Notes: generated from the letters alone by a model not told the origin. DNA of 64,000 bases from Parvibaculum sp. (GCA_019635975.1 JAHBYM010000001.1:1-64000), one strand, 5' to 3'. Shown: positions 27,348 to 61,718, counted from the first letter of the stretch. A program made the numbers and translations.

Positions 27348-27438
27348 GAAATGCCGCCTGTTGGCGGACCAAGCCCCGCTCAAGACGGGGTTCAACGGAA
27401 GCCGCAAGGTTTCCCGCCCTTGGAGGAGGGGGGTACCG

Positions 27439-30195: not shown

Positions 30196-30212
30196 TTTCG
30201 CCCCCGTCATTT

Positions 30213-30228
30213 CCATCCTTTCGGGTGG
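30213..30228. repeat. Small palindrome after the LAL regulator
   Basis: ccatcc, loop tttc, gggtgg: a 6-bp stem (one T-G pair), 18 bp after the regulator stop. Same core (ccwycctttcgggtggg) as the stem-loop at 26183-26204. No T-run, so a weak terminator at most. Confidence 0.35.
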
Positions 30229-30321
30229 GGAAGAGGGGTGCGGCCCGGCGCTACCTTCCTCTCATAAACGGTGGCCGTTCTTTCCGGACGACATGCCGAT
30301 AAACAATAGGGGGAGAGGCGC

Positions 30322-32241: not shown

Positions 32242-32633
32242 AAGTCTTTTTCACGGCGGCCCTCACCATCGATCTCGACAAGGAGACATGGGAATGCGCC
32301 GGCTGCGGCCACGAGCTGGGTTCGGCCCGCGACAACTACAAGAAGGGCCTCCTCGTCCGCGACCGCGAGCCGTCGGAAATCCACGCCCCCATCCTCGATG
32401 CCGAACGCTACGACTTCACCTTCGCGCCCGATGGCGACTGGTGCCGCATCCTCGAATATTGCTGCCCCGAATGCGGCCGCCTCGCCGAGGTCGAATATCT
32501 GCCGCCGGGCCACCCGCCGGCTCACGATATCGACCTCGATATCGACGCCCTGAAAACGCAATGGGCCGCGCGCGAACCGCTGAGCGAACCTGCCCTCGGG
32601 CCGGAATTCGTCGCGCCCACCCATTCGCACTGA
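32238..32633 (+). CDS. Small zinc-ribbon subunit of acetone/acetophenone carboxylase (Apc2-like)
   Basis: A 131-residue protein of the acetone carboxylase gamma family. Two cysteine pairs, ECAGCG (about residues 18-22) and CCPECG (about 72-77), form a probable zinc ribbon. LLVRDREPSEIHAPILDAERY and FTFAPDGDWCRILEY lie between them. It is a structural subunit of the carboxylase complex. It is coupled to the HyuA-like gene upstream by an ATGA overlap and followed 16 bp later by the second HyuA-like gene. This gene is what distinguishes the locus from ordinary hydantoinase or 5-oxoprolinase operons. Confidence 0.85.
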   Translation: MKVFFTAALTIDLDKETWECAGCGHELGSARDNYKKGLLVRDREPSEIHAPILDAERYDFTFAPDGDWCRILEYCCPECGRLAEVEYLPPGHPPAHDIDLDIDALKTQWAAREPLSEPALGPEFVAPTHSH

Positions 32634-32649
32634 AACCGGAGACCGCATC

Positions 32650-34785
32650 ATGCGCCGCGTATCTGTCGACATCGGCGGAACCTTCACCGACTGCTCCCTC
32701 GTCTGGGACGACCGCTATGTCGAGGCGAAGTCGCTGACCACGCATCAGAACCTGGCGCTCGGGTTCAACGCCTCGCTGAAAATCGCCTATGAACAACTGG
32801 GCCTGACGCTGGAAGAAGTGATGCGCGAGGTCGACAGCGTGCGCTATGCGACGACGCTCGGCACCAACGCGCTGATCGAGCGCCGCGGCCCCCGCGTCGG
32901 CCTCCTCGTTACCGCCGGCTTCGAAGCGATGGTGCCCTTGAGCCGCGGCCGCGGCTATGGCGAGGGCCTGCCGGACCGTCAGCGCCGCGACCTGCCGATG
33001 GCGCAGCGTCCCGAGCCGCTCGTGCCCGTCCAGATGATCGTCGGCGTCCGCGAACGCGTCGCCGAAACCGGCGAGATCCTGATGCCGGTCGATGCCGAGG
33101 ACGTGCGCGCGCAAGTGCGCAAGCTGGTCGACAACGGCGTCCAGGCGTTTGTCGTCTCGCTGGTCAATGCGGTCGTCCAGCCCGAACATGAATTGCTGAT
33201 CGAGGAAATCATCCGCGAGGAATTCCCCGAACAGCTTCTCGGTTCCGCGCCCATCGTGCTGTCGCATCAGGTCGGCGGCCGCAAGGGCGAATATGCGCGC
33301 ACCTCGTCGGCCATCCTCGACGCCTTCCTGCACAACGCAATGTATCACGGCCTCTCGACGCTGGAGCTGAACCTGCGCGACAACGGCTATCGCAAGCCGA
33401 TGCTGGTCATCCACAATTCGGGCGGCATGGCGCAGTTGAATTCGACCGATGCGCTGCAGACCATTCACTCCGGTCCCGTCGCCGGCATCAACGCGTCGGA
33501 ACATCTGGCCGTCGAAGCCGATCTCGGCAATGTCGTCTGCACCGACATGGGCGGCACCTCTTTCGACATCGGCCTCGTCGTCAAGGGCGGCGTCAAGTTC
33601 TACGACTTCAATCCGGTCATCGGCCGCTGGCTGGTCAACATCCCGATGGTGCATCTGGTGACGCTCGGCGCCGGCGGCGGTTCGATCGCGCGCTTCGACC
33701 GCTTGCGCCGCGCCGTCGCGGTCGGGCCCGAAAGCGCCGGCTCCGATCCCGGCCCCGCCTGCTACAATCGCGGCGGCCGCTATCCCACCGTCACCGACGC
33801 CGACCTCGCGCTCGGCTATCTGCTGGCCGACCGCTACGCCGACGGCTCGATCCCCTTGAACGAACGCCGCGCCACCCGCGCGCTCGAAAAGGAAGTCGGC
33901 GAACCGATGGGCACCGATGCCCTCGGCGCGGCCAAGCTGATCCGCCAGAAGATCGACAACGACATGGCCAACGGCATCGCGCAGGAATTGCGCGTCCGCG
34001 GCTACGAGCCCCGCCATTTCACGATCCTGGCTTACGGCGGCAACGGCCCGCTTCACGCCTGCGGTATCGCCAATGTGCTTGGCGTTTCGCGCGTCATGGT
34101 GCCGCCCTTCAGCTCCATCTTCTCGGCCATCGGCGCCGGCAACATGGACCAGCTCCATTTCCACGAACGCTCGCTCTATCTCTCGCTCTACGATTCCAAC
34201 ACGCGGAAAATCTTCGACGACTTCGACAGCTTCAACGCGCTGGTCGAGGAACTCGAACAAAAGGGCAGGGACGATCTGATGCGTCAGGGCGTGGCGCCCG
34301 CCGCCATCAAGCATCGTCTCGAACTCGACATGCGTTACGGCAACCAGCTCGCGCAAACCGCCGTCGTCGTCTCGAAGAACCGCCTCGAAACCGCCGACGA
34401 TCTGATGGAGGTGCTGGCCGCCTTCTCGAAGGATTATGGCCGCCGCTATGGCGAAGGCAGCCAGGCGCCGGAGGCCGGCATCCGCATCAACACGATCCGC
34501 GTCGCCACTTATTCCTCGATGTCGACATTGAAATTCACCGACATCCTGCCGAAGGAAGCCGACCTCGCGCCGGCCCCCGCCGCCACGCAACATAAAGAGT
34601 GCCACTTCGTCGGCCATGACGGCGCAATGAAGACAGCCTTCCACGATCTCGCCGATCTCTCTTTCGGCTCGGTCGTCGAAGCCCCCGCCGTCGTCATCTC
34701 GCCCTCCACCACCTACCTCGTCGAGCCCGGCTGGCGCCTGAAAATAGGCCGCCACGGCGCCGCCCTCTTCGAGCGCGCAGAGTAG
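32650..34785 (+). CDS. HyuA-like ATPase subunit of ketone carboxylase (Apc3-like)
   Basis: A 711-residue HyuA/acetone carboxylase beta-type subunit with the canonical loop VSVDIGGTFTDCSLVW at the N-terminus, ATTLGTNALIERRGPRVGLL, TDMGGTSFDIGLVVKGG, LGAGGGSIARFD, GSDPGPACYNRGG and AYGGNGPLHACGIAN. About 77 kDa, as expected for the larger ATPase subunit of acetophenone carboxylase. ccggag precedes the ATG at 32650. Unlike the first HyuA-like subunit, its phosphate loops are fully canonical, so this is likely the main ATP-hydrolysing subunit. A 278-bp gap with palindromes separates it from the HyuB-like gene. Confidence 0.85.
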   Translation: MRRVSVDIGGTFTDCSLVWDDRYVEAKSLTTHQNLALGFNASLKIAYEQLGLTLEEVMREVDSVRYATTLGTNALIERRGPRVGLLVTAGFEAMVPLSRGRGYGEGLPDRQRRDLPMAQRPEPLVPVQMIVGVRERVAETGEILMPVDAEDVRAQVRKLVDNGVQAFVVSLVNAVVQPEHELLIEEIIREEFPEQLLGSAPIVLSHQVGGRKGEYARTSSAILDAFLHNAMYHGLSTLELNLRDNGYRKPMLVIHNSGGMAQLNSTDALQTIHSGPVAGINASEHLAVEADLGNVVCTDMGGTSFDIGLVVKGGVKFYDFNPVIGRWLVNIPMVHLVTLGAGGGSIARFDRLRRAVAVGPESAGSDPGPACYNRGGRYPTVTDADLALGYLLADRYADGSIPLNERRATRALEKEVGEPMGTDALGAAKLIRQKIDNDMANGIAQELRVRGYEPRHFTILAYGGNGPLHACGIANVLGVSRVMVPPFSSIFSAIGAGNMDQLHFHERSLYLSLYDSNTRKIFDDFDSFNALVEELEQKGRDDLMRQGVAPAAIKHRLELDMRYGNQLAQTAVVVSKNRLETADDLMEVLAAFSKDYGRRYGEGSQAPEAGIRINTIRVATYSSMSTLKFTDILPKEADLAPAPAATQHKECHFVGHDGAMKTAFHDLADLSFGSVVEAPAVVISPSTTYLVEPGWRLKIGRHGAALFERAE

Positions 34786-34890: not shown

Positions 34891-34949
34891 GAAAGCGTCA
34901 CATCGTGCCGAAACTCTCAATCCGCTGAACCAGCCGTATCTGCCGCATG

Positions 34950-35011
34950 CCCGCCCCGAAATTTGTGCCGCTGACGCGCCCCAAATTTCGACCCTCCCTC
35001 AAGGGGAGGGT
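34950..35011 (-). repeat. 62-nt composite palindrome, copy 2 (inverted)
   Basis: Read on the minus strand: accctccc-cttga-gggagggt hairpin (35011-34991), then cgaaattt (34990-34983) pairing with aaatttcg (34964-34957), then gggcggg. It has the same order of parts and the same 62-nt length as copy 1 but opposite orientation. It ends 41 bp before the ribosome site of the HyuB-like gene. Confidence 0.6.
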
Positions 35012-35063
35012 GGCAGCGCGAACGAAACGCGCAAAACAACCAAACCGCTCCGGAGGAACGAAA

Positions 35064-37316
35064 ATGGGTGACGACATGGACATCACCGGCGCCGCATCGG
35101 GCGCGGTGGACGCCTTCCTGAGCGAGACCAATCTCTATCTCGCGCCCGATCCCGTGATCATGAACAATCACGGGCTCGAACCGCGCACGGCCTATGAAGA
35201 CGAATGCATCGCGAAGGAAAGCGATCCCGTTCGCCTCGAAATCGTCCGCGAACGGATACTCGCCGGCGTCAACGAGAGCTTCGAGATGCTCGAAAACATG
35301 GGCGCGGCGCCGGGCGCCAAATGGGGCGACTGCGTGTCGGCGGTCTACACCGAAAGCGGCGACCTGAGCCTCGCCAGTTCCGGCGGCGTCGTCATCTTCT
35401 GCAACCTCGTGCAGTATCCGATCAAGTTCATCCGCAAATACTGGTCGAAGGACAAGACGGTCGGCATTCGGGAAGGCGATGTCTTCATCGTCAACGATGC
35501 GCGATACGGTCAGGCCCACAACACCGACCAGTCGATGATGATGCCGGTCTTCCACGAAGGAAAGATCGTCGCCTGGGCGGGCGCGACCGTCCACGAAGGT
35601 GAAAACGGCGCCATCGAGCCGGGCGGCATGCCCTCGCTCGCCGAGCAGATCTGGGACGAGGGGCTCAAGATGTCGCCCTTCAAGGTCGCCGAGAATTACA
35701 CGCTGCGGCGCGATCTCGTCACCTTCCTGCAAAATTCGGTGCGCGAGCCGAAGCTGCAATATGCGGACATGAAGGTGAAGATGTATGTCTGCCGCCGCAT
35801 CGAAACCCGCATCCACGAAGCGATTGCCGAATATGGCGTCGAGGCCGTCGTCGCCGCATTGCGCATGAACCTTGAAGACACCGACGCCGAAGTCCGCCGC
35901 CGCCTGAAGGAATGGCCGGACGGCACCGTGCGTCATTCATGGTGGACCGACGGCACCTTGCGCGAAAATGTGCAGATCAAGATCAATCTCGAACTGACCA
36001 AGAAGGGCGACGAGCTGACCTTCGACTATCGCGGCTCCAGCCCCGAATTCACCAACCGCTCCAACAACAGCCTCGACATCACCGTCAAGGGCATGCTGGC
36101 GCAGTTGTTCCTGACCTTCATCTGGCCCGACATCCCGCGCAATCAGGGTGTACTGGCGCCGGTCAATTTCATCTTCGACAACCCCTCGGTCCTGAAGCCC
36201 GGCTTCGGCACACCGAGCGCCCAGTCGATGATGACGGTCTTCACCGCATGGAGCGCCGGTCAGGTCGCGACCATGAAGTTCCTCTATTCGAACCCGCACA
36301 AATACACCCGTGTGCTTGCGCCCTGGTTCAACATGATCAACACCTTCCTGTTCGGCGGGCTGACGCAGCACGGCGAAATGGTCGGCAATGTCTGCGCCGA
36401 CATCAACGGCATGGGCGGCGGCGCACTGGCCGACCGCGATGGCGAACATGGCTGCGCGCCGATCTTCGCCACCATGTCGGACATCGGCGAACAGGAATTC
36501 ATCGAGGAAGAAGTCCCTTTCATCCAGATCGTCTCGAAAAAGATGATGAAGGACAATCAGGGCTTCGGCCGGCAGCGCGGCGGCATGGGCTATCAGATGG
36601 TGCTGGCCATGCGCGACAGCGACGCCTTCGGCTTCATGCTGACGGCGATGGGCGCGAAGTTCCCCAACATTCCGGGCCTCTTCGGCGGCTATGGCTGCCC
36701 GACCTATCCGCTGGCCCGCATCAGGGGCGTCAACGTTTTCGAGATTCTGAAGAAGGACCCGGCCTCCTTCCGTTACTCGATCGAGGAGCTGATGAACGAG
36801 CGTCCCTTCCCGGACGCGCAATACAGCACCCATCCGATGACGCTCGGCTACACGCTGGCGCAGCGCGGCGAGCTCTACATGATCGCGCAAGGCACCGGCG
36901 GCGGCTTCGGCGATCCGCTGGAGCGCGCGCCCGCCGATGTAATGCGCGACATGGACGAGGGCCTGATCTCCGACGATGTCGCCTGGCGCATCTACCGCGT
37001 CGTCTACAACAAGGAAACCTTGCATGTCGACGAGGACGCGACCGCAAAGGCGCGCGACGAGGCCCGCCGCGAGCGCATCGCGAAGAGCAAGCCCTTCGAT
37101 GCCTTCTGCAAGGAATGGGTGAAGGACAAGCCGTCCGGCAAGGTGCCGTATTTCGGCTCGTGGGACGACAAGACGATGGTCCATGCCGGCGATCCCGACA
37201 AGCTCCACCCGGCGGGCCAGGTTGTGCCGCCGGTCGTCATGGCGCATCCCCTGCAGGTGAAGATCGACAAGCTCGAGGCCGAGCTGGCCGAGTGCCGTAA
37301 ATCCGGCAAACGCTGA
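35064..37316 (+). CDS. HyuB-like subunit of ketone carboxylase (Apc4-like)
   Basis: A 750-residue hydantoinase B/acetone carboxylase alpha-type subunit. Recognisable stretches are IVRERILAGVNESFEMLENM, GDVFIVNDARYGQAHNTDQS with candidate metal-binding His and Asp, HEGENGAIEPGGM, FDYRGSSPEFTNRSNNS and GGGFGDPLERAPADVMRD. In ketone carboxylases this subunit holds the metal site where carboxylation happens. The ATG at 35064 follows cggagga. Its stop overlaps the ATG of the next gene by one base. Length is near 83 kDa, within the family range. Confidence 0.87.
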   Translation: MGDDMDITGAASGAVDAFLSETNLYLAPDPVIMNNHGLEPRTAYEDECIAKESDPVRLEIVRERILAGVNESFEMLENMGAAPGAKWGDCVSAVYTESGDLSLASSGGVVIFCNLVQYPIKFIRKYWSKDKTVGIREGDVFIVNDARYGQAHNTDQSMMMPVFHEGKIVAWAGATVHEGENGAIEPGGMPSLAEQIWDEGLKMSPFKVAENYTLRRDLVTFLQNSVREPKLQYADMKVKMYVCRRIETRIHEAIAEYGVEAVVAALRMNLEDTDAEVRRRLKEWPDGTVRHSWWTDGTLRENVQIKINLELTKKGDELTFDYRGSSPEFTNRSNNSLDITVKGMLAQLFLTFIWPDIPRNQGVLAPVNFIFDNPSVLKPGFGTPSAQSMMTVFTAWSAGQVATMKFLYSNPHKYTRVLAPWFNMINTFLFGGLTQHGEMVGNVCADINGMGGGALADRDGEHGCAPIFATMSDIGEQEFIEEEVPFIQIVSKKMMKDNQGFGRQRGGMGYQMVLAMRDSDAFGFMLTAMGAKFPNIPGLFGGYGCPTYPLARIRGVNVFEILKKDPASFRYSIEELMNERPFPDAQYSTHPMTLGYTLAQRGELYMIAQGTGGGFGDPLERAPADVMRDMDEGLISDDVAWRIYRVVYNKETLHVDEDATAKARDEARRERIAKSKPFDAFCKEWVKDKPSGKVPYFGSWDDKTMVHAGDPDKLHPAGQVVPPVVMAHPLQVKIDKLEAELAECRKSGKR

Positions 37317-38065
37317 TGCCGGCCGCCCTGCCGCGCCTCTGGATCGACGGCGCCGCCTTCGGTGCCCGCGTCCTGCGCGGCGGCGACGATCCCTGGGACG
37401 CGCCGGGCGAGCTCGGTCTCTTCCTGCGCGAGCTTTCCGCGCTGCTGGCGCTCGAAATCGTCGACATCGACATCGGCGCCGGCATCGCCGCCTTCGCCCG
37501 CGCGCAAGGTGCGGGCCCGCTCGACGCCGGCGGTATCGAAGACCTGTTGTCCGATGCCGCCTTGCGGGCTCATCTGAAACGCGGCATCGAAACGGCCTCC
37601 GGCGCCCTCTCCGGCAGGCCACTGGCGCTCGCCCTGCCGGGCCCCGGCGCGCTGGCGCAAGTTTTCATGGATGAAGGCGACATCGACGACAACGCGCTCG
37701 ACGACCTCGCCATGGCGCTGGCCGATCTGCTGCGCGCGCTGGTCGCGCCCTCAATCGGCGTCCTCCGCTTCACCGAAGCCGACCCGCGCGCGCTGGAGTT
37801 TTTCGAACCGCTCACCAACATCGCCCGCCACTACGAGCTGCCCGCCGTCCTCGTCATGGCCGGCGAGGCGGGTGAAGCGGCAGGCTTTGACAGAATTTAC
37901 AGCCTGTCCCCGGCCGTCGAGGGAAGAATTCTCGGCCCCGCCTTTTGGGAGGGGGGCGATGTCGCCCTCCAGGGCGATACTCCGGTCTTCACGGAAGTGC
38001 CGTCCGCTCTCGTCCCCGAAACCGCACTTGCGAAAATCCGGGTACTGAACGAAAGCGCTTCCTGA
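37316..38065 (+). CDS. Accessory protein of ketone carboxylase operon (candidate Apc5-like)
   Basis: A 249-residue acidic protein that I do not recognise by motif. RPLALALPGPGALAQVF resembles the barrel strand of uroporphyrinogen-decarboxylase-like proteins, but only weakly. Its place as fifth gene, translationally coupled (TGATG) to the HyuB-like gene and followed by an intrinsic terminator, matches the fifth subunit of acetophenone carboxylase, which is a separate monomeric component. It is shorter than that protein as I remember it (about 34 kDa). No signal peptide or membrane segment. Call by context. Confidence 0.5.
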   Translation: MPAALPRLWIDGAAFGARVLRGGDDPWDAPGELGLFLRELSALLALEIVDIDIGAGIAAFARAQGAGPLDAGGIEDLLSDAALRAHLKRGIETASGALSGRPLALALPGPGALAQVFMDEGDIDDNALDDLAMALADLLRALVAPSIGVLRFTEADPRALEFFEPLTNIARHYELPAVLVMAGEAGEAAGFDRIYSLSPAVEGRILGPAFWEGGDVALQGDTPVFTEVPSALVPETALAKIRVLNESAS

Positions 38066-42154: not shown

Positions 42155-44143
42155 TCAATCGGCCGCCGTGGAATACTCGCGCTGCGTCGCCGCGAACTCG
42201 ACAAAGTAGTCGATGGCATCCGGGTTCGACATCGCATCCCGGCTCGCCGCGTTCTCCGCCGGCGCACCCAGCAGAATCTTCCGTACCGGGACTTCCATCT
42301 TTTTCCCGGTCAGCGTGTAGGGAACGGCTTCGATTTGATAAATACGATCGGGTACATGACGCGGCGAATACTTCTCTTTCAACGCCTTGTTGATCTTCTG
42401 GCACAATGCATCGTCGAGCGTCTGTCCCTTCGACAGCACCACGAAAAGTGGCATGAAAAAATTGCCGCCCGGCAGGTCGAGATTGACGATGATCGAGTCC
42501 TCGATGCCTTCAATCCCCTCGATGGTGCGATAGATCTCCGCGGTGCCGATGCGCACGCCATAGCGATTGAGCGTCGAATCCGAACGCCCGAGAATGAAGC
42601 AGCCGCCGCGCTTGTTGACCTTGAAGTAGTCGCCGTGCCGCCAGTGCCCCGGATAGGTGTCGAAATAGGAATCGCGATAGCGGTGTCCGCCTTCGTCGTT
42701 CCAGAAAAAGAGCGGCATGGAAGGCATCGGCTTGCTGACGACAAGTTCGCCCACCGCATCGACAATTTCGTTTCCGTCGTCGTCGAACGCATGCACATCG
42801 ACACCGAGACAGCGCGTCTGGATCTCGCCGGCATAACCCGGCAGCGTCGGCATGCCGCCGACAAACGCCGAGGCAACGTCGGTGCCGCCGCTCTGCGACG
42901 TCACCCAGATGTCGGAGCGGATATTGTCGTAACACCATTCCATATGTTCCGGCATCACCGGCGAACCGCCGAGCAGGATGCTGTCCATCGCGCCGAGATC
43001 GTAAAGTTTGTTGGGGCGTATGCCTTCCTTCATCTGTCCGTTGAGATAGGTCGGGCTCGCGCCGAACAGCGTCATGCCGGTTTCGGCGGCCAGCGCCCAC
43101 AGCCGATCCGCCTTCGGCGTCACCGGATTGCCGTCGTAAAGCACGACGGCCGAACCGGCGACGAGACCGGAAAGCAATATGTTCCACATCACCCAGCCTG
43201 TGGTGGTGAAGTAGAACATGCAGGACGTGGGTTTGAGGTCGAGGTGGAAATGCGTGAACTTCAGCGCCTCCAGCAGCACCCCGCCATGTCCGTGTACGAA
43301 GGGTTTCGGCAGTCCCGTCGTACCCGACGAATAGACGATCCACAGCGGATGGTCGAAAGCCGTTTCCTCGAAAGCGAAATCGGCGACCTCCGGCCGCGCC
43401 ATCAGCGACGCCCAGGAAATCGCGTCCGGCGAAATCGCGCCACCCGCCGCGCCCGGCACATGCGCCACATGTTCGAGCGAGGGCAGGGCGTCGATCATCG
43501 ATTGCACTTCCGCCCGCCGGTCGAAGGTCTTGCCGCCATAGCGGTAGCTGTCGGTTGCGAACAGCACCTTCGGCGTGATCTGGCTGAACCGGTCGATGAC
43601 GCTCGCCGCGCCGAAATCCGGCGAACAGCTCGACCATACGGCGCCGATGCTGGCGCTGGCAAAAAAGGCGACCGCCGCCTCCGGCACGTTCGGCAGATAG
43701 GACGCCACGCGGTCGCCAGGCATGACGCCAAGTTCGCGCAGCGCCGTCGCCAGCTTGAAGACGCGCGCCTTCAATTCGCACCAGCTGATTCTTTGCGCCG
43801 CGCCTTCCTCGTCCGCCGCCCAGATCGCCGTCTTGTCGCCGTCGCCCTTCGACAGCAACGTCTCGATATAGTTGACGCGCGCACCCGGAAACCACGTCGC
43901 GCCCGGCATCGCCGCATCGCGCAACACGCATTCATAGGGCGTCGGCGATTTCACCTCGAAATAGTTCCACATCGCTTCCCAGAACGCCGCGATGTCGTCG
44001 ACCGACCAGCGCCGCAATTCTTCATAGCTGCGAAAGTCATGTCCGCGCGCATTGAGCCAGGCGGTGAACGTCGTGACGTTCGCCGCTGCAACCCGCTCCG
44101 AGGACGGCGTCCACAGCAGCTCTCCCATGTTGGCCAACGTCAT
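42155..44143 (-). CDS. aacS: Acetoacetyl-CoA synthetase (acetoacetate-CoA ligase)
   Basis: Activates acetoacetate, or a related beta-keto acid, to its CoA thioester with ATP. The 662-residue length fits the family. IVYSSGTTGLPKPFVHGHGG is the AMP-binding loop, LGGSPVMPEHMEW and SQSGGTDVASAFVGG are acetoacetyl-CoA-synthetase-like core motifs, GDYFKVNKRGG and GRSDSTLNRYGVRIG are the hinge, and GKKMEVPVRKI has the catalytic Lys. The ATG at 44143 follows gggaggat. It is close to a ketone carboxylase operon, whose product would be a beta-keto acid needing exactly this step. Benzoylacetate-type substrates are an alternative. Confidence 0.88.
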   Translation of the reverse strand: MTLANMGELLWTPSSERVAAANVTTFTAWLNARGHDFRSYEELRRWSVDDIAAFWEAMWNYFEVKSPTPYECVLRDAAMPGATWFPGARVNYIETLLSKGDGDKTAIWAADEEGAAQRISWCELKARVFKLATALRELGVMPGDRVASYLPNVPEAAVAFFASASIGAVWSSCSPDFGAASVIDRFSQITPKVLFATDSYRYGGKTFDRRAEVQSMIDALPSLEHVAHVPGAAGGAISPDAISWASLMARPEVADFAFEETAFDHPLWIVYSSGTTGLPKPFVHGHGGVLLEALKFTHFHLDLKPTSCMFYFTTTGWVMWNILLSGLVAGSAVVLYDGNPVTPKADRLWALAAETGMTLFGASPTYLNGQMKEGIRPNKLYDLGAMDSILLGGSPVMPEHMEWCYDNIRSDIWVTSQSGGTDVASAFVGGMPTLPGYAGEIQTRCLGVDVHAFDDDGNEIVDAVGELVVSKPMPSMPLFFWNDEGGHRYRDSYFDTYPGHWRHGDYFKVNKRGGCFILGRSDSTLNRYGVRIGTAEIYRTIEGIEGIEDSIIVNLDLPGGNFFMPLFVVLSKGQTLDDALCQKINKALKEKYSPRHVPDRIYQIEAVPYTLTGKKMEVPVRKILLGAPAENAASRDAMSNPDAIDYFVEFAATQREYSTAAD

Positions 44144-44605
44144 ATCCTCCCGGATTTTCTGGCGCGCCGCGGTTAACCCGGGTCGCGAAACCTTGCCTGA
44201 CCGCAAATCCTGGAACGATCGCGCATCTCTCTCCCCACCCGTTCGGGCGGCCTCCCGCGTCCCCGATTGCGTTGCCGCCGCACCCCCTTCGTGTAGTTCC
44301 GGCGCCGCTCTCGATCAGGAATTGTCGAACGGGTGTCCGGCCCACTTCGGCTGGCAAGAAAGCGCGCAACTGCCGCCGGTCGCGGGGGTCGGATGACTGC
44401 CACTCTTTAGGGCGGGGCGTGGAGAGACCCCGTCGCCCACGATCCATAAAACGGACCGGATGTGTCGCTTTTCGGCCATGGGGGCTGGACGGTGCGACCG
44501 GCGCAAATGTCGATAAACAAGAAATAATTTACAAAAATAACAATTTATGAGATGAACTAACCGCCTCGGGGGGAGGAAGCCGGGGGGTTAAGGGGGGAGT
44601 ACCGA
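44144..44605. other. 462-bp divergent control region between AACS and RND transporter genes
   Basis: No coding potential is evident. It contains a CGTGTAGT motif (44290-44297), GC-rich imperfect palindromes around 44230-44250, and an AT-rich block (about 44511-44553, with aaataatttacaaaaataacaatttatgag) about 55 bp before the transporter start that is the likely promoter or operator of the envelope cluster. Confidence 0.6.
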
Positions 44606-47104
44606 GTGGAACGTTTGAGTGTTCGTCTGGCCCGCGCCGTCTTGTCCTACCGGCGGCTGTCGCTGTTCGCGATTGTCGCGGTGACCGCGTTTTTTGCGTT
44701 GGGTCTGAAGAATGTCGAGCTGCGGACGATATTCACCGACCTGCTGCCCAAGAATCATCCTTTCGTTCAGACCTACACGGACCATCCGAATTTCGGCAAT
44801 CCGCTGACCGTGACCATCATGGTCAAGCGCAAGGACGGGGACATCTACAACCCCGAAACGCTTGCCAAGGTTTGGGACTTGACGCGCGACGTCGACCTTG
44901 CGCCCGGCGTCGACCACGACCAAATCCTTTCCGTCGCGACAGAGAAGGCCCGCTACGCCGAGGCAACGCCGGACGGCATCGATTCCCGTCCGCTGATGGA
45001 AGACCACCCGCCGCGCACCGCCGAAGAGATTGCCGAGTTCCGCTCGCGCGTTCTTAAATCACCCAACGTGCGCACCTTTATGGTTTCGGAAGATGAAACC
45101 GCGACACTCATCAACGCAACGTTTATCGAGCGGCTACTCGACTACGGCGAGACCTTCGAGTACCTCGACGATCTCATCGCGAATGCGCGAGACGACAACC
45201 ACGAAGTCTATATGGCCGGCCAACCGGTGCTGACGGGTTGGGTCTATTTCTATCAGCAACAGATGTTCGGCATATTCGCGATCACGGCGATTGCGCTGCT
45301 GCTGGCACTTGTCTTCTACATGCGAAACATTGTGGGCGTCGTCGCGCCGCTGATAACAAGTATTGTCGCCGCCATCTGGGGCTTCGGTTTTGTCGGCTGG
45401 CTCGGTCAGCCGATCGAACCGCTGATCATGGTTGTGCCGCTGTTGCTCGTCGCGCGATCCTTCAGCCACTGTGTTCAGTTCACCGAGCGCTACTACGAGA
45501 TACTTCACCATGTGAAGGACAGACGCCGCGCCGCCGAATTGTCGCTGAGCGTCATGATGGCGCCTGGTGTACTCGGCATCACGACCGACGCGCTCGGCCT
45601 CTTCATCATCGGCGTCGCGCCGATTCCTGCCATGGAGCGGTTTGCGTTGTTCTGCGGTTTCTGGGCGCTGATCCTCATTCCGACCAACGTCTTCCTGACA
45701 CCGCTGCTGATCATGTTGCTGCCGAAGCCGCGCAATGTCGATCGGATGGTCGGCTCGGGCAATCCTGAGAGCGGCTATCGCGGTATCCGGATATTGCTCG
45801 GCCTGATCGGACGCCTGTCCATCGGCAAGATGTCGGTCCTGACGGCAATCGGTGTCGCGACGCTAGCCGTGGTCAGTTTCGGCAAGGTGCTCGACATCAA
45901 AATCGGGAATCCGGTCGAGGGCAGCAACCTGCTCTGGGAAGACTCCGAGTTCAACGTAGCGGTTGCAAACATCAACGCTCATTTTCCGGGACTTAACACT
46001 CTTGAAGTCGTCTTCGAGTCGAAATCTCCGGACACGCTCGACCGGGTGATGCGGAAGGCCGAAACGGTGCTGACGATGCATCGCCTTCAGCATTTGCTCG
46101 AAAGCCAGCCAAATCCGCCGGAAGCGTCCCTTTCATTTGCCGACTATCTGCCGGAAGCCAATCGTCTCTTCAGCGGCGGCAATCCAAAATGGGCGCCGCT
46201 CGACCACAACGACGCAGCCGTCAGCGCGGCGGCGGGCGCGTTGATGGTCGGCACGGGACCGAAAGCCTTCCTGCATGTTGCCGACTTCGAACAGCGCAAT
46301 GGCACGGTTTCTCTCTGGTACAAGGACAACAAGCAGGAGACCGTCGACGAAGCGCTCTTCCAGGCGCGCGCCGCGCTTGAGATCATCGGTACCGAGTTCG
46401 ACGACTTCCGTATCCGCCTCGGTAGCGGAACCATTGCGCTGCAACAGTCGATCAACGACACCGTTGACACCTATCAGTGGGTCATTCTGGCCTTGCTGAA
46501 CGTCGTCATTCTGATCACTTGCAGCTATGCGTATCGGTCGGTGGTGGCCGGTGTTCTGTTGCTGATCCCGGTCAATCTTTCAAACCTGTTGCTCGGCGCG
46601 GTTATGGTCGAAATGGGGATCGGCCTCGACGTCAACACGCTGCCCATCGCCGCGATTGGTGTCGGCGTCGGCATCGACTATGGCATCTATCTGCTGAGCC
46701 GCATCTACGAGGAATATCAGCTCCGCAAGGACATGGCGGCCGCGATCCTGACGGCGGTCACGACCACAGGCAAGGCGATCTTCTTTACAGCAACCATCGT
46801 GCTGATCGGAATCATGCCCTGGTATTTCCTGTCCGAGCTCAAGTTCCTTGCGGACATGGGGCTGCTGCTGGTCATGGTGATGCTGATCAACATGATTATC
46901 GCGCTGATCGTCGTGCCGCTGCTTGTGTGGCTCATCCGGCCACGGTTCATCGATTCCAAGAAATTGCTCGTCAGCGAAGGTATCGACCTTTCGGCCCTGT
47001 CGGCCGAAACCGATGCGAAGGCTGCGGCGCCTCGCGCAAATGCAGCGGAGGCGGCCAGACACCGGGAGATTGATTTGAACGAGATGGCTCTCGCCCGTCC
47101 CTGA
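44606..47104 (+). CDS. RND-superfamily (MMPL/sterol-sensing-domain type) inner-membrane transporter
   Basis: An 832-residue RND permease with the two-fold layout of MMPL/HpnN-like exporters: helix 1 at about 17-36, a periplasmic domain, helices 2-6 (from FGIFAITAIALLLALVFYMR through LFCGFWALILIPTNVFL), then a repeat with helix 7 near 410, a second periplasmic domain and helices 8-12 at 625-790. LNTLPIAAIGVGVGIDYGIYLLSRIYEE has the conserved Gly/Asp of the proton path. No adaptor (membrane fusion) gene is adjacent. The GTG at 44606 follows ggggggag. First gene of the five-gene envelope cluster; the substrate is probably hydrophobic. Confidence 0.88.
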   Translation: MERLSVRLARAVLSYRRLSLFAIVAVTAFFALGLKNVELRTIFTDLLPKNHPFVQTYTDHPNFGNPLTVTIMVKRKDGDIYNPETLAKVWDLTRDVDLAPGVDHDQILSVATEKARYAEATPDGIDSRPLMEDHPPRTAEEIAEFRSRVLKSPNVRTFMVSEDETATLINATFIERLLDYGETFEYLDDLIANARDDNHEVYMAGQPVLTGWVYFYQQQMFGIFAITAIALLLALVFYMRNIVGVVAPLITSIVAAIWGFGFVGWLGQPIEPLIMVVPLLLVARSFSHCVQFTERYYEILHHVKDRRRAAELSLSVMMAPGVLGITTDALGLFIIGVAPIPAMERFALFCGFWALILIPTNVFLTPLLIMLLPKPRNVDRMVGSGNPESGYRGIRILLGLIGRLSIGKMSVLTAIGVATLAVVSFGKVLDIKIGNPVEGSNLLWEDSEFNVAVANINAHFPGLNTLEVVFESKSPDTLDRVMRKAETVLTMHRLQHLLESQPNPPEASLSFADYLPEANRLFSGGNPKWAPLDHNDAAVSAAAGALMVGTGPKAFLHVADFEQRNGTVSLWYKDNKQETVDEALFQARAALEIIGTEFDDFRIRLGSGTIALQQSINDTVDTYQWVILALLNVVILITCSYAYRSVVAGVLLLIPVNLSNLLLGAVMVEMGIGLDVNTLPIAAIGVGVGIDYGIYLLSRIYEEYQLRKDMAAAILTAVTTTGKAIFFTATIVLIGIMPWYFLSELKFLADMGLLLVMVMLINMIIALIVVPLLVWLIRPRFIDSKKLLVSEGIDLSALSAETDAKAAAPRANAAEAARHREIDLNEMALARP

Positions 47105-47140
47105 CCGGGGCCGGCGGGTTCCATTCCTACTGGGAGGAGG

Positions 47141-48526
47141 ATGGAAATGCGAATTCGCAAATACGACCGGGATTTCTCGCGTCGGGTATTCATGGAAAAG
47201 TCCCTGAAGGGGATTGCGGCCGCCGGCGTCCTGTCGCCGCTTTGGCCGGAAATCGCGAAGTCGGGGACGATCGACAAAGCCTATCCCGATGAGCTGCTGT
47301 CGATTGAGCTTTACACCAAGGGACAGGTGAAGCCCGGCGACGTCATCACCGCCGACAATGTCGACGTAGTGAAGGATCTGCTCGATCCGATCGCCTATCG
47401 TCAGGTCAAGGAGATGGGACGGCGCATCAACATCGTCGAAACGACGCGCGATGTGACCAAGCTCTTCCCGCACGAATATCTCGAAGCGACGCTCCGCAAT
47501 GCCGGCCGCGCGCGTTTCGATGCCAATGGCAACGTCGTCACCGACGACGGCAGCCCCTGGATCGGCGGCAATCCGTTTCCGAATGCCCAGACGGGCGAGG
47601 AGGCCTTCTACAATCTGACCCTGTCATGGGGTCGGCACGACGAGTCGGTCTATGCGGTGCGCGACTGGGACATCTCGCCAAACGGCACTTTGTCGTACCA
47701 GTACGATTTCGTCTGGGCCGAGCAGAACACGGTCGGCCTTGTCGCCAAGCCCTCACCCTATCAGGCGGGCGCCGAAGACAAGCTGCGTTATCAGGCGGTC
47801 TGGTTTACATCGCCGACCGACGCACGCGGCACAGCGTTCCTCAATACCTGGTACTACGATCAGCGCAAGTTCCCGGACCTGCTCGGCTATCTGCCGGCCT
47901 TCAAGCGCGTCCGCAACTTCCCGACCAACCAGCGCTTCGAACCGCTGGTCCCCGGCATCACGATCTTCCTGTCCGACGCGTGGGCGGCGGGCGATCCGAT
48001 GCTCACCTGGGGCAACTACAAGGTCGTCGGCACCAAGCCGCATCTTGGCGCCGTGTCGGGCAACTGGACCGGCAAGACCAACGCCAACTGGGAACGCGAA
48101 GTGCATGGCGGTCCGAACGGCCAGACCTTCTTCGAGGACTACAAGGAACTGATCCCGGAAGTGCTGGTGGTCGAGGCGGAGCCGACCGGCTATCCGCGTG
48201 CACCTGTCGGAAAGAAGCGCGTCTATATCGACATGCGCAACATGATGTTCGTGTCGTACCTCACCTATGACCGGCGCGGCGAGATATGGAAATCGTTCGA
48301 GCCGGCCTTCAGCCAGTACAAGGATGGCGACGCCGCCTTCATGGATGGCGGTCACCCGCTCTGGTCGTGGACACATGTGCACAGCCACGATGTGCAGTCG
48401 AACCGCATGAGCCGGTTCGTCCAGGCGAAGCAGATCACCGGCGGATTCGGTCCCGAATACAACATCGGGCCGAGCATCTATGACCGCTACCTGACGGCGC
48501 AGGCGATCCGGCGTTTCGGGACATAG
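47141..48526 (+). CDS. DUF1329 family protein, Tat-signalled (paralogue A)
   Basis: A 461-residue DUF1329 protein. DFSRRVFMEKSLKGIAAAGVL at residues 11-31 is a Tat-type signal, so it is exported folded. Family features are KAYPDELLSIELYTKG, EATLRNAGRARFDANGNV, WIGGNPFPNAQTG, NFPTNQRFEPL and WSWTHVHSHDVQSNRM. The LolA/LolB-like fold of the family suggests a periplasmic carrier of hydrophobic ligands. gggaggagg precedes the ATG at 47141 (47147 also possible). It lies 36 bp after the RND gene and is highly similar to the DUF1329 protein at 51.5 kb. Confidence 0.88.
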   Translation: MEMRIRKYDRDFSRRVFMEKSLKGIAAAGVLSPLWPEIAKSGTIDKAYPDELLSIELYTKGQVKPGDVITADNVDVVKDLLDPIAYRQVKEMGRRINIVETTRDVTKLFPHEYLEATLRNAGRARFDANGNVVTDDGSPWIGGNPFPNAQTGEEAFYNLTLSWGRHDESVYAVRDWDISPNGTLSYQYDFVWAEQNTVGLVAKPSPYQAGAEDKLRYQAVWFTSPTDARGTAFLNTWYYDQRKFPDLLGYLPAFKRVRNFPTNQRFEPLVPGITIFLSDAWAAGDPMLTWGNYKVVGTKPHLGAVSGNWTGKTNANWEREVHGGPNGQTFFEDYKELIPEVLVVEAEPTGYPRAPVGKKRVYIDMRNMMFVSYLTYDRRGEIWKSFEPAFSQYKDGDAAFMDGGHPLWSWTHVHSHDVQSNRMSRFVQAKQITGGFGPEYNIGPSIYDRYLTAQAIRRFGT

Positions 48527-48578
48527 CACCCGTGCGGCGCCGGAGGGTCCGGCGCCGCACACCGCTTTCGGAGAAGGC

Positions 48579-49517
48579 ATGTTGAAAAGAAAACTCTTCG
48601 CGGTTCTCGCTTTCGTTCTGGTGCCGGGCATCGTTGCGGCGGAGGCCGATCCGGCGGTCCGTTACCAGGGCACCTCGCACGATGCGTTGTTCGACATCGC
48701 ATTCGATGGCGCTCGCGGGATTGCCGTCGGCAACCGCGGTGTTGTGCTGGAGAGCGATGACGGCGGAAAGACGTGGGCACATGGTCCCCGGCCGGACACC
48801 GAGCTTGCGCTGCTTGGTGTCTCCACGAACGGCGACCGCAGGTTTGCCGTCGGACAGTCCGGGCAGATATTTCGCGCCACGTCGCGCGCATGGACCCCGG
48901 TTGAGAGCGGTACCGACGAACGTCTCTTCGCCGTCGCCGTCGGCAGCAGGGGAATGGTTGTCGTCGTCGGCGCCTTCGGAACGATCATCGTTTCGCAAAA
49001 TGACGGCGAAAGCTGGTCGCCGGTCGTTCTCGACTGGATGGACATACTTGGCGACTACCTGGAGCCGCATTTCTACGCGGTGCATATCGACGGCGACACC
49101 GTGACCATCGGCGGCGAGTTCGGACTTGTCATTCGTTCGCGTGACCGCGGGACGACGTGGACAGTCGTGCACAAGGGCGAAGCCTCGATTTTCGACTTCT
49201 CATTCAACGGCCGGGGCAAGGGGCTTGCCATCGGTCAAAACGGTCTTGTCGTTCGCACCGACGACGGAGGCGCGAGCTGGCGCAGCGTAGCGCCCTTGGG
49301 AGAAACCAATCTGCTCGGCGTGTGGTTCAACGGCGAGCGTGCCTTGACGGTCGGCATTCGCGGCGCCTTTGCGAGCCGCGACGGCGGGCGTTCATGGACG
49401 GCGGTCACGACAGGCGATGTCGACATCGCCTGGTATCAGGCGGTTGCGTCGCCGGCGGGGCGCGATGCGCCTCTCGCGGTCGGCCATAGCGGCCGGATTC
49501 TGGAGATAAGGGAATAG
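48579..49517 (+). CDS. Secreted YCF48-like beta-propeller protein
   Basis: A 312-residue protein with a Sec signal peptide (KRKLFAVLAFVLVPGIVAA, about residues 3-21). It then has six or so repeats of the BNR/YCF48 type: GIAVGNRGVVLESDDGGKTW, FAVGQSGQIFRATSRAW, GTIIVSQNDGESW, GGEFGLVIRSRDRGTTW, LAIGQNGLVVRTDDGGASW and GAFASRDGGRSW. This matches the YCF48/photosystem II assembly-factor family, found in non-photosynthetic bacteria next to RND and DUF1302/DUF1329 genes. A scaffold or coupling role in the envelope complex is inference. It lies between paralogue A and the DUF1302 gene, 52 and 64 bp away. Confidence 0.87.
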   Translation: MLKRKLFAVLAFVLVPGIVAAEADPAVRYQGTSHDALFDIAFDGARGIAVGNRGVVLESDDGGKTWAHGPRPDTELALLGVSTNGDRRFAVGQSGQIFRATSRAWTPVESGTDERLFAVAVGSRGMVVVVGAFGTIIVSQNDGESWSPVVLDWMDILGDYLEPHFYAVHIDGDTVTIGGEFGLVIRSRDRGTTWTVVHKGEASIFDFSFNGRGKGLAIGQNGLVVRTDDGGASWRSVAPLGETNLLGVWFNGERALTVGIRGAFASRDGGRSWTAVTTGDVDIAWYQAVASPAGRDAPLAVGHSGRILEIRE

Positions 49518-49581
49518 GCCGTCTGACGGCTTGAGGATTTTGGCTCCGACGGGGTTCGGATTATCCAAGGGAGGGGAGAAG

Positions 49582-51369
49582 ATGTCACGTAAACCTATCT
49601 CGGTCGCCGGGCGGCTTCTGGCTTGCACGGCACTCGCACTCGGGGCGATCTCGTTCGCACAGGAAGCAAGCGCGGTCGATTTCAACATTCAGGGCTTCAT
49701 CCGGCAGGAGCCGGCGATCAAGCTGACGGACAAGGAAAATCCGTTTAATCAACGAGGTAACATCTACAATTTTCGTCCGACAGTCCAAGACTCGACCTTG
49801 CTTGGCGGCGCAGTGACGGTAACGAACCGTCCCATCGCAGGCGCGGACAACGACTTCAATCTGATGGCGACGCGTCTGGAAGTCGACTTTCAGGCGAACT
49901 TCAATCAGAACTGGAACGGCTTCGCGCGCCTGCGCGGATATTTTCAGCCGGACATTTTCGACAACTACGGCGATCCCGAGTTCTTTGCCACACCGTTCTG
50001 GGGCGGCGACCGCGCAACGCTGTTCGAGGTCAACGGCAAGAACTACATGATGGATATGCCGGCGTTCTATGCCGACTATTCGGATGGTCCGCTCTGGCTC
50101 CGCTTCGGCAATCAGCAGATCGCCTGGGGTGAGTCGCTGTTCTTCCGTGTTCTCGATGTACCGAACGGCCTCGATCTGCGCCGTCATCTGCTGCTCGACC
50201 TGGTTGCCGAGGAGTTTGCCGACGAACGTGTCTCGTCGCCGGGCGTGCGTGGCTCGTACCGCGTTTCGAATAATCTCGAAATCGAGGCATTCACGCAATT
50301 GTTCAATCCGTCGATCCTCGCAAACCCGGATACACCCTACAACGTGATCCCCTCGCAGTTCACGATCCATCAGAAAGAGGGTTTCAAGGACGCGCGGGGC
50401 GCGATGAATGTCGGTACGCGCGTACAGGCGCAGTTCGGCGACGTCGCCGTTCAGGCGATAGCGGTCAACCGCCGAAATCCGGACGGCGTTTTCCATTGGA
50501 CGGAGTCCGGCGTCAATCGCGACATACCGGGCATCCCCGGCAGCGGATTCGTCCTGATGAATACACCGTTCGAGGTGAGCGACACCGGCGTTTACTCGGC
50601 CGCCGAATGGTTCACCTATGCCGGCATGGCTCGTCTCAACGGTCTGACGGGCTTCAACGCGGCGATCAACGAGTTCCCGGCGACGGCACTTCTGGGTGCG
50701 GTTCCCATGCCCAACCAGACGCTGGCTGCGTCCGAGCTCGATCTGTTTTTCCAGCTGAGCCCGCTTCGCGGGCACATCACGCGCATCTACCCGCGTGAAA
50801 GCATCTTCGGTCTCGGCGCCAACTATATCGTGAAGGCCGGTCCGGAGTCGTTCTTCGATCAGCTGGTGATCCGCAGCGAGTTGACCTACACGCCGAACAA
50901 GAAGTTCACCAGCCCCGATCTGAGCCGATCGCTGATCGAGGAAGACGAATATGTCGCCTCGCTGGTCTTCGAGAAATACCACCGCTTCACGCAGGAATTT
51001 CCGGCAACCTTCATGGTGCTGCAATATCTGCACAAGTCGGAGAGCGATCTGTTCGGCCGTCACCTGAGCGGCATGGGTGCGACTGGCGACCGGACAACAG
51101 GACTGCCGACCGGTGAGAGCTCCTTCAATGCTGTCGCCTTTGCGGTTCAGCAACCTTTTCCGAACCTGATCTGGCGGGCCGATTTCTCGGTCCTCTATGA
51201 CGTCAGGGGCGGTGCGCTGATCCAGCCTGGTCTCAGGTGGAAACCGAACGAGGCGTGGACGGCGGAAGTCTTTGCCAACATCGCACTGAGCGACGGCGGC
51301 AACGACGACATCATCAGCACGATCGACTGGGCAGACGAACTGGCGTTCCGCATTACCTACCAGTTCTAA
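49582..51369 (+). CDS. DUF1302 family outer-membrane beta-barrel protein
   Basis: A 595-residue DUF1302 protein. The signal peptide (SVAGRLLACTALALGAISFA, cleavage after ASA near residue 32) leads to VDFNIQGFIRQEPAI. The body alternates aromatic and polar residues as in outer-membrane barrels (WNGFARLRGYFQPDIFDNYG, PLWLRFGNQQIAWGESLFFR, DLRRHLLLDL) and ends with LAFRITYQF, a C-terminal Phe as recognised by the Bam machinery. The ATG at 49582 follows gggaggggagaag. It is the likely outer-membrane part of the cluster, forming a channel or docking site for the periplasmic DUF1329 proteins. Confidence 0.9.
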   Translation: MSRKPISVAGRLLACTALALGAISFAQEASAVDFNIQGFIRQEPAIKLTDKENPFNQRGNIYNFRPTVQDSTLLGGAVTVTNRPIAGADNDFNLMATRLEVDFQANFNQNWNGFARLRGYFQPDIFDNYGDPEFFATPFWGGDRATLFEVNGKNYMMDMPAFYADYSDGPLWLRFGNQQIAWGESLFFRVLDVPNGLDLRRHLLLDLVAEEFADERVSSPGVRGSYRVSNNLEIEAFTQLFNPSILANPDTPYNVIPSQFTIHQKEGFKDARGAMNVGTRVQAQFGDVAVQAIAVNRRNPDGVFHWTESGVNRDIPGIPGSGFVLMNTPFEVSDTGVYSAAEWFTYAGMARLNGLTGFNAAINEFPATALLGAVPMPNQTLAASELDLFFQLSPLRGHITRIYPRESIFGLGANYIVKAGPESFFDQLVIRSELTYTPNKKFTSPDLSRSLIEEDEYVASLVFEKYHRFTQEFPATFMVLQYLHKSESDLFGRHLSGMGATGDRTTGLPTGESSFNAVAFAVQQPFPNLIWRADFSVLYDVRGGALIQPGLRWKPNEAWTAEVFANIALSDGGNDDIISTIDWADELAFRITYQF

Positions 51370-51510
51370 GGCCGGTCAATCGAAGGCTCCGCCCGGGCCG
51401 TCGGCGCAGGATAGCACGCCTTTTCAGGATGAGGCGCTGTGTCCCCCCAAGGCGTTCCGGCGATCCGGGCGGATGCCGTATCCGTGTGAATGCGCGCGGT
51501 GGAGAAGTGG

Positions 51511-52887
51511 ATGCATTTGCGGCGCTACACGCATGACTATTCTCGCCGCCTGTTTTTGGAGCGGCTGGCGGCGGGCGTCGTCAGCCTCGGCGTGACGGCG
51601 CCGCTCTGGCCGGTTCTGGCCGCGACCGGTGACGCCTCGCGCGCCTATCCCGATGAACTCTTGTCCATTGACGCCTACACGAAGGGCGCCATCTCGACCG
51701 GCGGCCGGATTGACGCCGGCAACGTCGATCTGGTCAAGGAACTGCTCGACCCGATCCGTTACCGGCAGATCAAGGAGATGGGGCGTATCCTCGATGTCGT
51801 TGCACCGACGACGGAGTTAATGGAGCTGAGCCCCTGGGAGTATCTGGAGGCAACTCTGCGCAACAGCGGCAGGGCGCGCTTTGACTCACGTGGCAACGTG
51901 GTGACGGAGGAGGGCGAACCCTGGATCGGCGGCAATCCCTTTCCGAACCCGAAAAGCGCCATCGAGATTTTCGCCGGCCTGACATTGAGTTGGGGCCGTC
52001 ACGACATATCGGTTTACGCGACCAAGGAATTTGATCTCGCGCCGAACGGCGTGGTCGATTACCGCTATGAGAGCGTCTGGGCCGAGCTTGCGCCGGTTGG
52101 CCGGGTTGCCGTCGAGCCGATGCCTTATTGGCCCGAGTTCAAGGACAAGCTGCGCTTTCAGTCGGTGGCCTTCACGTTTCCAAACGAAGAGAAGGGCACT
52201 TCGTTCCTGAACATCTGGCCCTATGACCAGAATGAGTTTCCGGAGCTCTACGGCTATCTGCCGGCTTTCAAGCGCATCCGGCGTTTCCCCACCAATCAGC
52301 GTTTCGAACCGCTGATTGCAGGCTCCACGCTTTATCTCTCGGATGCATGGGCGGCGGGCGATCCGCTGCTGACATGGGGCAACTACCGCCTCGTGCATCA
52401 GGGGCCGGCGCTGGTCGCGCTCTCCGGCGGCTGGGCAGCCGATCATCCGAACTGGGAGCACACGACCCATGGCGGACCGCACGGCGACAGCTTCTGGGAT
52501 ACGAAAGTCCAGCTCGTGCCGGAGGCGCTGGTTGTCGAGGCCGAGCCGGTCATGTTTCCGCGAGCGCCGGTCGGCAAGAAGCAGGTCTGGTTCGATGCGC
52601 GCACACTGCTGCCATTCGTCATGGTGTCTTACGATCGGAAGGGCGAAGTCTTCAGGTCGTTTGACGGCGCATTCTCGCAATACAGGCAGGGCGACGCCGT
52701 TGTGATGGATGGAAAGCACCCATACTGGTCATGGACGCATGTTCACGCGCATAACATCCAGACCAACCGTATCACGCGCCTCGAACAAGTCCGTCAGATC
52801 AGGGGTGGTCACACGATGATGGTCAACGACCAGTCGGCTTATGATCGCTACCTGACCACCCACGCGCTCCGCCGTCTCGGAATGTAG
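51511..52887 (+). CDS. DUF1329 family protein, Tat-signalled (paralogue B)
   Basis: A 458-residue DUF1329 protein with the Tat-type segment DYSRRLFLERLAAGVVSLGV. I chose the ATG at 51511 because MHLRRYTHDYSRR then aligns with MRIRKYDRDFSRR of paralogue A and ggagaag lies just upstream; an ATG at 51490 would add seven residues. Shared stretches include AYPDELLSI, YLEATLRN, GRARFD, WIGGNPFPNP, FPTNQRFEPL and WSWTHVHAHNIQTNR; roughly half or more of all positions match. Two paralogues flanking the barrel gene suggest distinct partners or a heteromeric carrier. Last gene of the cluster; convergent with the sugar dehydrogenase. Confidence 0.88.
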   Translation: MHLRRYTHDYSRRLFLERLAAGVVSLGVTAPLWPVLAATGDASRAYPDELLSIDAYTKGAISTGGRIDAGNVDLVKELLDPIRYRQIKEMGRILDVVAPTTELMELSPWEYLEATLRNSGRARFDSRGNVVTEEGEPWIGGNPFPNPKSAIEIFAGLTLSWGRHDISVYATKEFDLAPNGVVDYRYESVWAELAPVGRVAVEPMPYWPEFKDKLRFQSVAFTFPNEEKGTSFLNIWPYDQNEFPELYGYLPAFKRIRRFPTNQRFEPLIAGSTLYLSDAWAAGDPLLTWGNYRLVHQGPALVALSGGWAADHPNWEHTTHGGPHGDSFWDTKVQLVPEALVVEAEPVMFPRAPVGKKQVWFDARTLLPFVMVSYDRKGEVFRSFDGAFSQYRQGDAVVMDGKHPYWSWTHVHAHNIQTNRITRLEQVRQIRGGHTMMVNDQSAYDRYLTTHALRRLGM

Positions 52888-57323: not shown

Positions 57324-57479
57324 GTGGGACGATCGGCGCCGGATTTGAGCGGTCATCCGGGGCCCGAAAAAAGGGGATCGATGTTAAGACCGCGGACGGA
57401 CTTCTTCATTCGAGCGGATTGGCGCCCGGTGTCCATGGGGCGCAACCCGGAACATTCCAGTGGATAGGGACCAATCGAG

Positions 57480-58712: not shown

Positions 58713-60515
<1,803 letters not shown>

Positions 60516-60519
60516 AGGG

Positions 60520-61512: not shown

Positions 61513-61718
61513 GGAGCATCTCCGCTGATGGCTGTCCGGTTTGTGGAGCAGGACGATAGAAGAACACAAGTATCGTCTGCATTCGTTTCGCATCGCAAGT
61601 CGGCCGTCGAGGTGCCGATCCTGGTCGTGTTCGACGACCGATCTGCTACAGTCCCGATATGCGATGCGTGACCGGCCGGTCTCGTGTTTTTACAACACCG
61701 GAAATATTGGAGCCTCTC

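Follow-up and report, generated by a model that had tools for sequence, protein, structure and literature searches.

Positions 44,606 to 52,887 of a 64,000-nucleotide stretch of Parvibaculum sp. DNA (GCA_019635975.1, JAHBYM010000001.1:1-64000; the whole stretch is called the window below) contain five consecutive open reading frames (ORFs) on the plus strand. They encode an RND permease, a DUF1329 protein (DUF1329a), a YCF48-like propeller, a DUF1302 protein and a second DUF1329 protein (DUF1329b). An original prediction from the sequence had described this five-gene set, its shared strand and its order, and all three are confirmed by the ORFs and their Pfam matches (Table 1). The intergenic gaps are 36, 52, 64 and 120 bp when the DUF1302 gene (595 aa) is read from the ATG at 49,582, which is preceded by GGAGGGGAGAAG; the listed TTG start of this gene at 49,531 is probably wrong. 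No membrane-fusion (adaptor) protein was found in the cassette or among its immediate neighbors, as had also been predicted, and the set does not correspond to an HAE1 tripartite pump.

We surveyed the cassette in 80 named loci; 60 of these include 5.6 kb or more of sequence beyond the RND gene and were used for partner counts. Downstream of the RND gene, YCF48 is present in 59 of the 60 loci, DUF1302 in 58 and DUF1329 in 50; all three lie directly 3′ of it in 49 loci, and 31 loci have the exact order RND-DUF1329-YCF48-DUF1302-DUF1329. The carriers include alphaproteobacteria (Parvibaculum, Zavarzinia), a betaproteobacterium (Methylibium, on a plasmid) and gammaproteobacteria (Solimonas, Hydrocarboniphaga, Nevskia, Zhongshania, Haliea, Luminiphilus and SAR92/Porticoccaceae), and the nearest named relatives of the window cassette are Parvibaculum metagenome-assembled genomes (MAGs). 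Because the arrangement recurs in three proteobacterial classes it is not due to chance, and this survey, proposed in the original prediction as a check, identifies the cassette as one conserved genetic unit.

Two related gene sets have been characterized in other bacteria. AmeABCD of the monoterpene degrader Castellaniella defragrans consists of DUF1302, DUF1329, YCF48-like and HAE3-type RND proteins; a deletion mutant tolerates monoterpenes less well and takes in more Nile Red, and growth on perillic acid is also poorer after an insertion in ameB (PMC6394551). In Pseudomonas putida, PP_0765/PP_0766 and PP_2018/PP_2019 are needed on Tween 20, and a substrate-transport system was proposed that comprises two complexes, DUF1329 with DUF1302 and DUF1329 with a periplasmic protein and RND (PMC10866462). 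The original prediction knew of no function assigned to the set as a whole. This was wrong: both systems consist of these four families, phenotypes have been described for them, and a transport role has been proposed.

The best match to the window RND is the HAE3 model TIGR00921, yet the score lies below the model's cut-off, and HpnN models reach only 22–30 bits against cut-offs of 752–1100, which places the protein outside the HpnN family. Members of its orthologous group are 58–99% identical, and the other RND proteins of the same genomes reach at most 33% over the full length. Identity to the RND proteins of Ame-type four-gene cassettes, used here as proxies for AmeD, is 25–30%. The GxGxDY motif of transmembrane helix 10 (TM10) is kept, and TM4 instead carries A...SHxVQ, which is invariant in nine aligned sequences including RND proteins of Ame-type cassettes. 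The combination of TM4 SHxVQ with TM10 GxGxDY is shared with the RND proteins of Ame-type plasmid cassettes from Aromatoleum EbN1, Pseudomonas MPC6 and Azoarcus KH32C. By analogy with known RND proteins, the Asp-Tyr of TM10 may be the carrier of the proton relay. A model of the RND orthologue from a Porticoccaceae-type MAG (L081) matches NPC1, PTCH1, MmpL and AcrB-type structures about equally (Z about 40), so the fold gives no direction of transport.

Both DUF1329 proteins have the predicted SRRxF-type Tat signals at their N-termini (SRRVF and SRRLF). They had been described as highly similar; their identity is 57%, and they are ancient paralogues. We built a tree of 94 DUF1329 sequences by a quick method with SH-aLRT support only, the root of which is unreliable. 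In this tree 34 of 35 copies that follow a DUF1302 gene fall into one group (97% support), apart from the RND-following copies, in all three classes; the sole exception is an a-type copy from locus L107, in which only one DUF1329 gene was seen. The pair thus goes back to an old duplication, with each copy kept in its place, and not to a local one. Few residues (8) are strongly specific to the a or b group, and these are conservative or scattered. The DUF1329b model matches LolA3 (9tp6, Z 20.0), 3bk5 (Z 18.6) and the DUF1329 structure 4z48 (Z 18.6; root-mean-square deviation 3.1 over 235 residues of 4z48_A), in agreement with both the Pfam assignment and the predicted LolA/LolB-like fold. DUF1302 is modeled as a porin barrel whose nearest matches are OprD-family barrels (Z about 17), with AlgE also similar; together with the Pfam score and the C-terminal ...ITYQF, this bears out the prediction of a barrel ending in Phe. 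A third, canonical DUF1329 gene (1e-119) lies far from the cassette at 14,123–15,478 on the minus strand, and the whole genome has seven DUF1329 and four DUF1302 matches.

Upstream of the cassette are five genes in apcABCDE order whose best solved matches are the subunits of acetophenone carboxylase (Apc, 5L9W). Both the gene order (PMC5214803) and the scores, which are closer to Apc than to acetone carboxylase, assign the enzyme to the Apc type; a plain acetone carboxylase was rejected on the same two grounds. The divergent CoA ligase beside the cassette most resembles acetoacetate-CoA ligase and occupies the position where a benzoylacetate-CoA ligase would act after a ketone carboxylase. In Aromatoleum, a CoA ligase of the same operon activates the carboxylase product (PMC4729919). 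The window thus resembles apcABCDE-bal of Aromatoleum aromaticum (PMC5214803, PMC4729919) in its five-gene carboxylase order and its beta-keto-acid CoA ligase, and differs in that the ligase is divergent and the regulator is of MalT/LuxR type.

The carboxylase and the cassette are linked both in distribution and by a shared site. Among 27 genomes of the genus, 13 have an orthologue of the RND and 12 have the Apc gamma subunit, all 12 among those 13 (12/13 with the cassette, 0/14 without; nominal Fisher p 7e-7, uncorrected for shared ancestry and therefore overstating the independence of the genomes). Upstream of apcA, ATCCTTTCGGGTGGGG is found without a change in all 11 genomes compared, within DNA that otherwise varies. 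Parvibaculum orthologous loci also conserve a closely related sequence, CTTTAGGGCGGGG, whose left part is similar, in the stretch that separates the CoA ligase gene from the RND gene. Matches to the site with at most three mismatches occur in the window at only these two places (0.09 expected). The carboxylase operon and the promoter region of the cassette share an operator-like site, on which the MalT/LuxR-type regulator may act.

Table 1. Features of the cassette, the operator-like sites and the ketone carboxylase island (positions in the window).
Feature	Position	Strand	Evidence
RND permease, MMPL/HAE3 type, 832 aa; TM4 ARSFSHCVQ, TM10 GVGIDYGIY	44606..47104	+	Pfam MMPL 5e-27; TIGR00921; motifs
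DUF1329a, Tat-exported, LolA-like, 461 aa; copy adjoining the RND gene	47141..48526	+	Pfam DUF1329 1e-72; tree
YCF48-like propeller, secreted, 312 aa	48579..49517	+	Pfam PSII_BNR/YCF48 5e-20
DUF1302 outer-membrane barrel, OprD-like fold, C-terminal Phe, 595 aa from ATG	49582..51369	+	Pfam DUF1302 2e-25; fold
DUF1329b, Tat-exported, LolA-like, 465 aa; separate ancient paralogue	51490..52887	+	Pfam DUF1329 3e-57; tree; fold
Operator-like site TCCATCCTTTCGGGTGGGG, upstream of apcA; 16-bp core identical in 11/11 genomes	30212..30230	+	
Operator-like site GCCACTCTTTAGGGCGGGG, in the CoA ligase–RND intergenic region; Parvibaculum orthologous loci share its core	44399..44417	+	
Second related site, GCCGCCCGAACGGGTGGGG	44233..44251	-	
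MalT/LuxR-type regulator, upstream of carboxylase	27361..30195	+	
apcA-like ketone carboxylase alpha' subunit	30322..32241	+	5l9w 5.5e-84
apcB-like gamma subunit	32238..32633	+	5l9w 1e-33
apcC-like alpha subunit	32650..34785	+	
apcD-like beta subunit	34947..37316	+	5l9w 4.6e-84 (acetone carboxylase 2.3e-45)
apcE-position gene, no Pfam match, conserved after apcD	37316..38065	+	
Divergent acetoacetate/beta-keto-acid CoA ligase	42155..44206	-	4wd1 acetoacetate-CoA ligase 9e-209

In other genomes the cassette is likewise found near catabolic genes. Among the 80 loci, Apc-type genes are nearby in 23, acyl- or acetoacetyl-CoA ligases in 26, pmoCAB-like particulate monooxygenase genes with multicopper oxidases in 8, and P450 or flavin monooxygenases in 11. 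In loci from Porticoccaceae-type MAGs (L081, L084–L087, L095 and L107), a pmoCAB-like operon that includes two multicopper oxidases lies immediately upstream of the RND gene. On a plasmid of Methylibium petroleiphilum PM1 (NC_008826.1), the same five genes come after genes for an alkane-type monooxygenase, rubredoxins, a LuxR regulator and an FAD oxidoreductase; their content and order suggest that these are the methyl tert-butyl ether (MTBE) monooxygenase genes Mpe_B0606 to B0597 (listed in PMC4517660). PM1 has the cassette twice, in inverted copies (L154); in the second, the DUF1302 gene is shortened and has an IS3-like element beside it.

We read the cassette as a divergent five-part trans-envelope system of the Ame type that is run within a ketone/hydrocarbon catabolic island (probability about 0.6). 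That it is an Ame-type, envelope-spanning system for hydrophobic compounds is highly likely, and its cargo probably belongs to hydrocarbon/ketone catabolism; the hydrophobic-substrate route of the original prediction fits the catabolic neighbors. Movement outward is somewhat favored over movement inward, with a small remainder for neither. We infer the substrate class, carrier path, direction and division of labor between the two DUF1329 proteins as follows. The proton-driven RND, with YCF48 seated on it or close by, would draw a hydrophobic substrate or intermediate (a hydrocarbon, ketone or derivative) out of the periplasm or the inner membrane. The two LolA-like proteins of the DUF1329 family would ferry the compound across the periplasm, and the DUF1302 barrel would let it through the outer membrane. 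Net export would hold a toxic substrate or intermediate below damaging levels.

A more specific version of this scheme is a two-carrier relay, in which DUF1329a docks to the RND and YCF48, DUF1329b docks to DUF1302, and the hydrophobic compound is handed between them with no fixed adaptor. Such a relay would have persisted since the ancient duplication and would serve hydrocarbon/ketone catabolism specifically; the idea comes from where the two genes lie and from the age of the paralogues, and it is tentative and rather doubtful. Two of the three complex predictions called for in the original prediction were run with AlphaFold as fused chains, in which stops between in-frame neighbors were read through and the alignments were partly paired, for DUF1302-DUF1329b of the window and RND-YCF48 of L081. 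The individual domains were well folded (mean pLDDT 80 and 84), but neither model gave a confident interface (pTM 0.64 for both), since this pTM about equals our estimate for unconnected domains; this is not proof that there is none, and the predictions neither support nor exclude the relay. The roles that the original prediction gave to DUF1329, in place of a fixed adaptor, and to the propeller, as the piece that joins the others, are hypothetical.

Several points weigh against an Ame-type exporter of catabolic compounds. The fused-chain models are one of them. In addition, the Tween 20 phenotype in P. putida can equally mean uptake, and the modeled RND fold is as close to NPC1 and PTCH1 as to drug exporters. 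Several of the neighboring substrates are also small and membrane-permeant, such that the need for a carrier is hard to see.

The strongest alternative is uptake: a hydrophobic growth substrate would enter through the barrel, travel inward on DUF1329 and be delivered by the RND into the inner membrane, in the way that NPC1 handles sterol. We consider this possible but less probable than export. Besides the requirement for the P. putida set in growth on Tween 20, it would account for the cassettes that adjoin first-step oxygenases, and it is consistent with the RND fold close to NPC1 and with a barrel nearest to OprD-type uptake porins. However, the bacterial RND proteins characterized so far are mostly exporters, and loss of AmeABCD lowers tolerance and increases dye influx, and the ameB insertion also cuts growth on perillic acid. 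A second alternative is lipid trafficking for outer-membrane upkeep, similar to HpnN or Lol, where the catabolic linkage would reflect membrane remodeling under solvent stress. The LolA-like fold of DUF1329 and the MmpL-type fold of the RND agree with it, but the HpnN models score far under their cut-offs, the neighbors are genes of ketone and hydrocarbon catabolism, and about half of the genus lacks the cassette, which comes after a carboxylase and not after lipid genes. We therefore regard this role as unlikely, and the lipid and hopanoid emphasis of the original prediction is unsupported. That the genes are merely linked neighbors in a catabolic island, with no joint function, would agree with the lack of a confident pairwise interface but is very improbable given the three partner families directly downstream of the RND in 49/60 loci of three classes and the joint phenotypes published for AmeABCD and the P. 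putida set.

Some loci depart from the common layout. About 15 gammaproteobacterial loci (L080, L103, L111, L113, L115, L150 and others) contain an ExbB-ExbD-ExbD-VWA module with a secreted protein of about 750 aa, located between DUF1302 and DUF1329b or straight after DUF1302, and are possibly a proton-motor version of the cassette. In L111 (12,401–14,851), DUF1329a and YCF48 share one reading frame; a natural fusion was rejected in favor of a probable indel because the YCF48 signal peptide is retained in the middle of the frame. Locus L131 (CAMATU010000101.1), titled as a Klebsiella pneumoniae MAG, bears Apc-type genes and a cassette-type RND and is most likely a mislabeled or contaminated bin; L110 and L145, whose titles name Verrucomicrobia, seem to be cases of the same kind. 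In the window, the region downstream of the cassette (58,713–62,726) encodes a flavin monooxygenase, possibly of Baeyer-Villiger type, an aldo-keto reductase and a short-chain dehydrogenase, which may serve further ketone catabolism, and a TRAP transporter (55,441–58,547) adjoins these genes. A sulfatase gene followed by that of its formylglycine-generating enzyme is located at 9,608–12,209.

DUF1329 and DUF1302 are Pfam families with no assigned function, and this subfamily links them to defined hydrocarbon and ketone pathways by neighborhood, co-occurrence and a shared control site. As the same five genes are present in culturable bacteria, including the MTBE degrader M. petroleiphilum PM1, the passage of oily growth substrates and toxic intermediates across the Gram-negative envelope is directly testable, with a bearing on bioremediation and solvent tolerance.

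Compared with known systems, the window cassette shares with AmeABCD the same four families, encoded together in a hydrocarbon-catabolic island. The order is DUF1302-DUF1329-YCF48-RND (A-B-C-D) in AmeABCD and RND-DUF1329-YCF48-DUF1302-DUF1329 (D-B-C-A-B′) here, although gene order may not be a strict mark of the Ame type because plasmid cassettes of other bacteria vary in it. The window cassette differs further in its second, ancient DUF1329 paralogue and in an RND that is distant from the Ame-type proxies. The P. putida set likewise needs DUF1302, DUF1329, a periplasmic protein and an efflux-type transporter together, but it is split over two separate loci, has one DUF1329 and shows its phenotype on Tween 20. 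The hopanoid transporter HpnN and MmpL3 share the HAE3/MMPL-type RND fold, but the window RND scores far below the family cut-offs, and these two transporters act without DUF1329, YCF48 or DUF1302 partners. In the openly accessible literature searched, we found no description of the five-gene variant, the ancient DUF1329 pair or the ketone-carboxylase link. The four-family transport kit is thus already known, and what is added here is a distinct RND subfamily with a conserved cassette, an ancient DUF1329 pair and a link to a ketone island.

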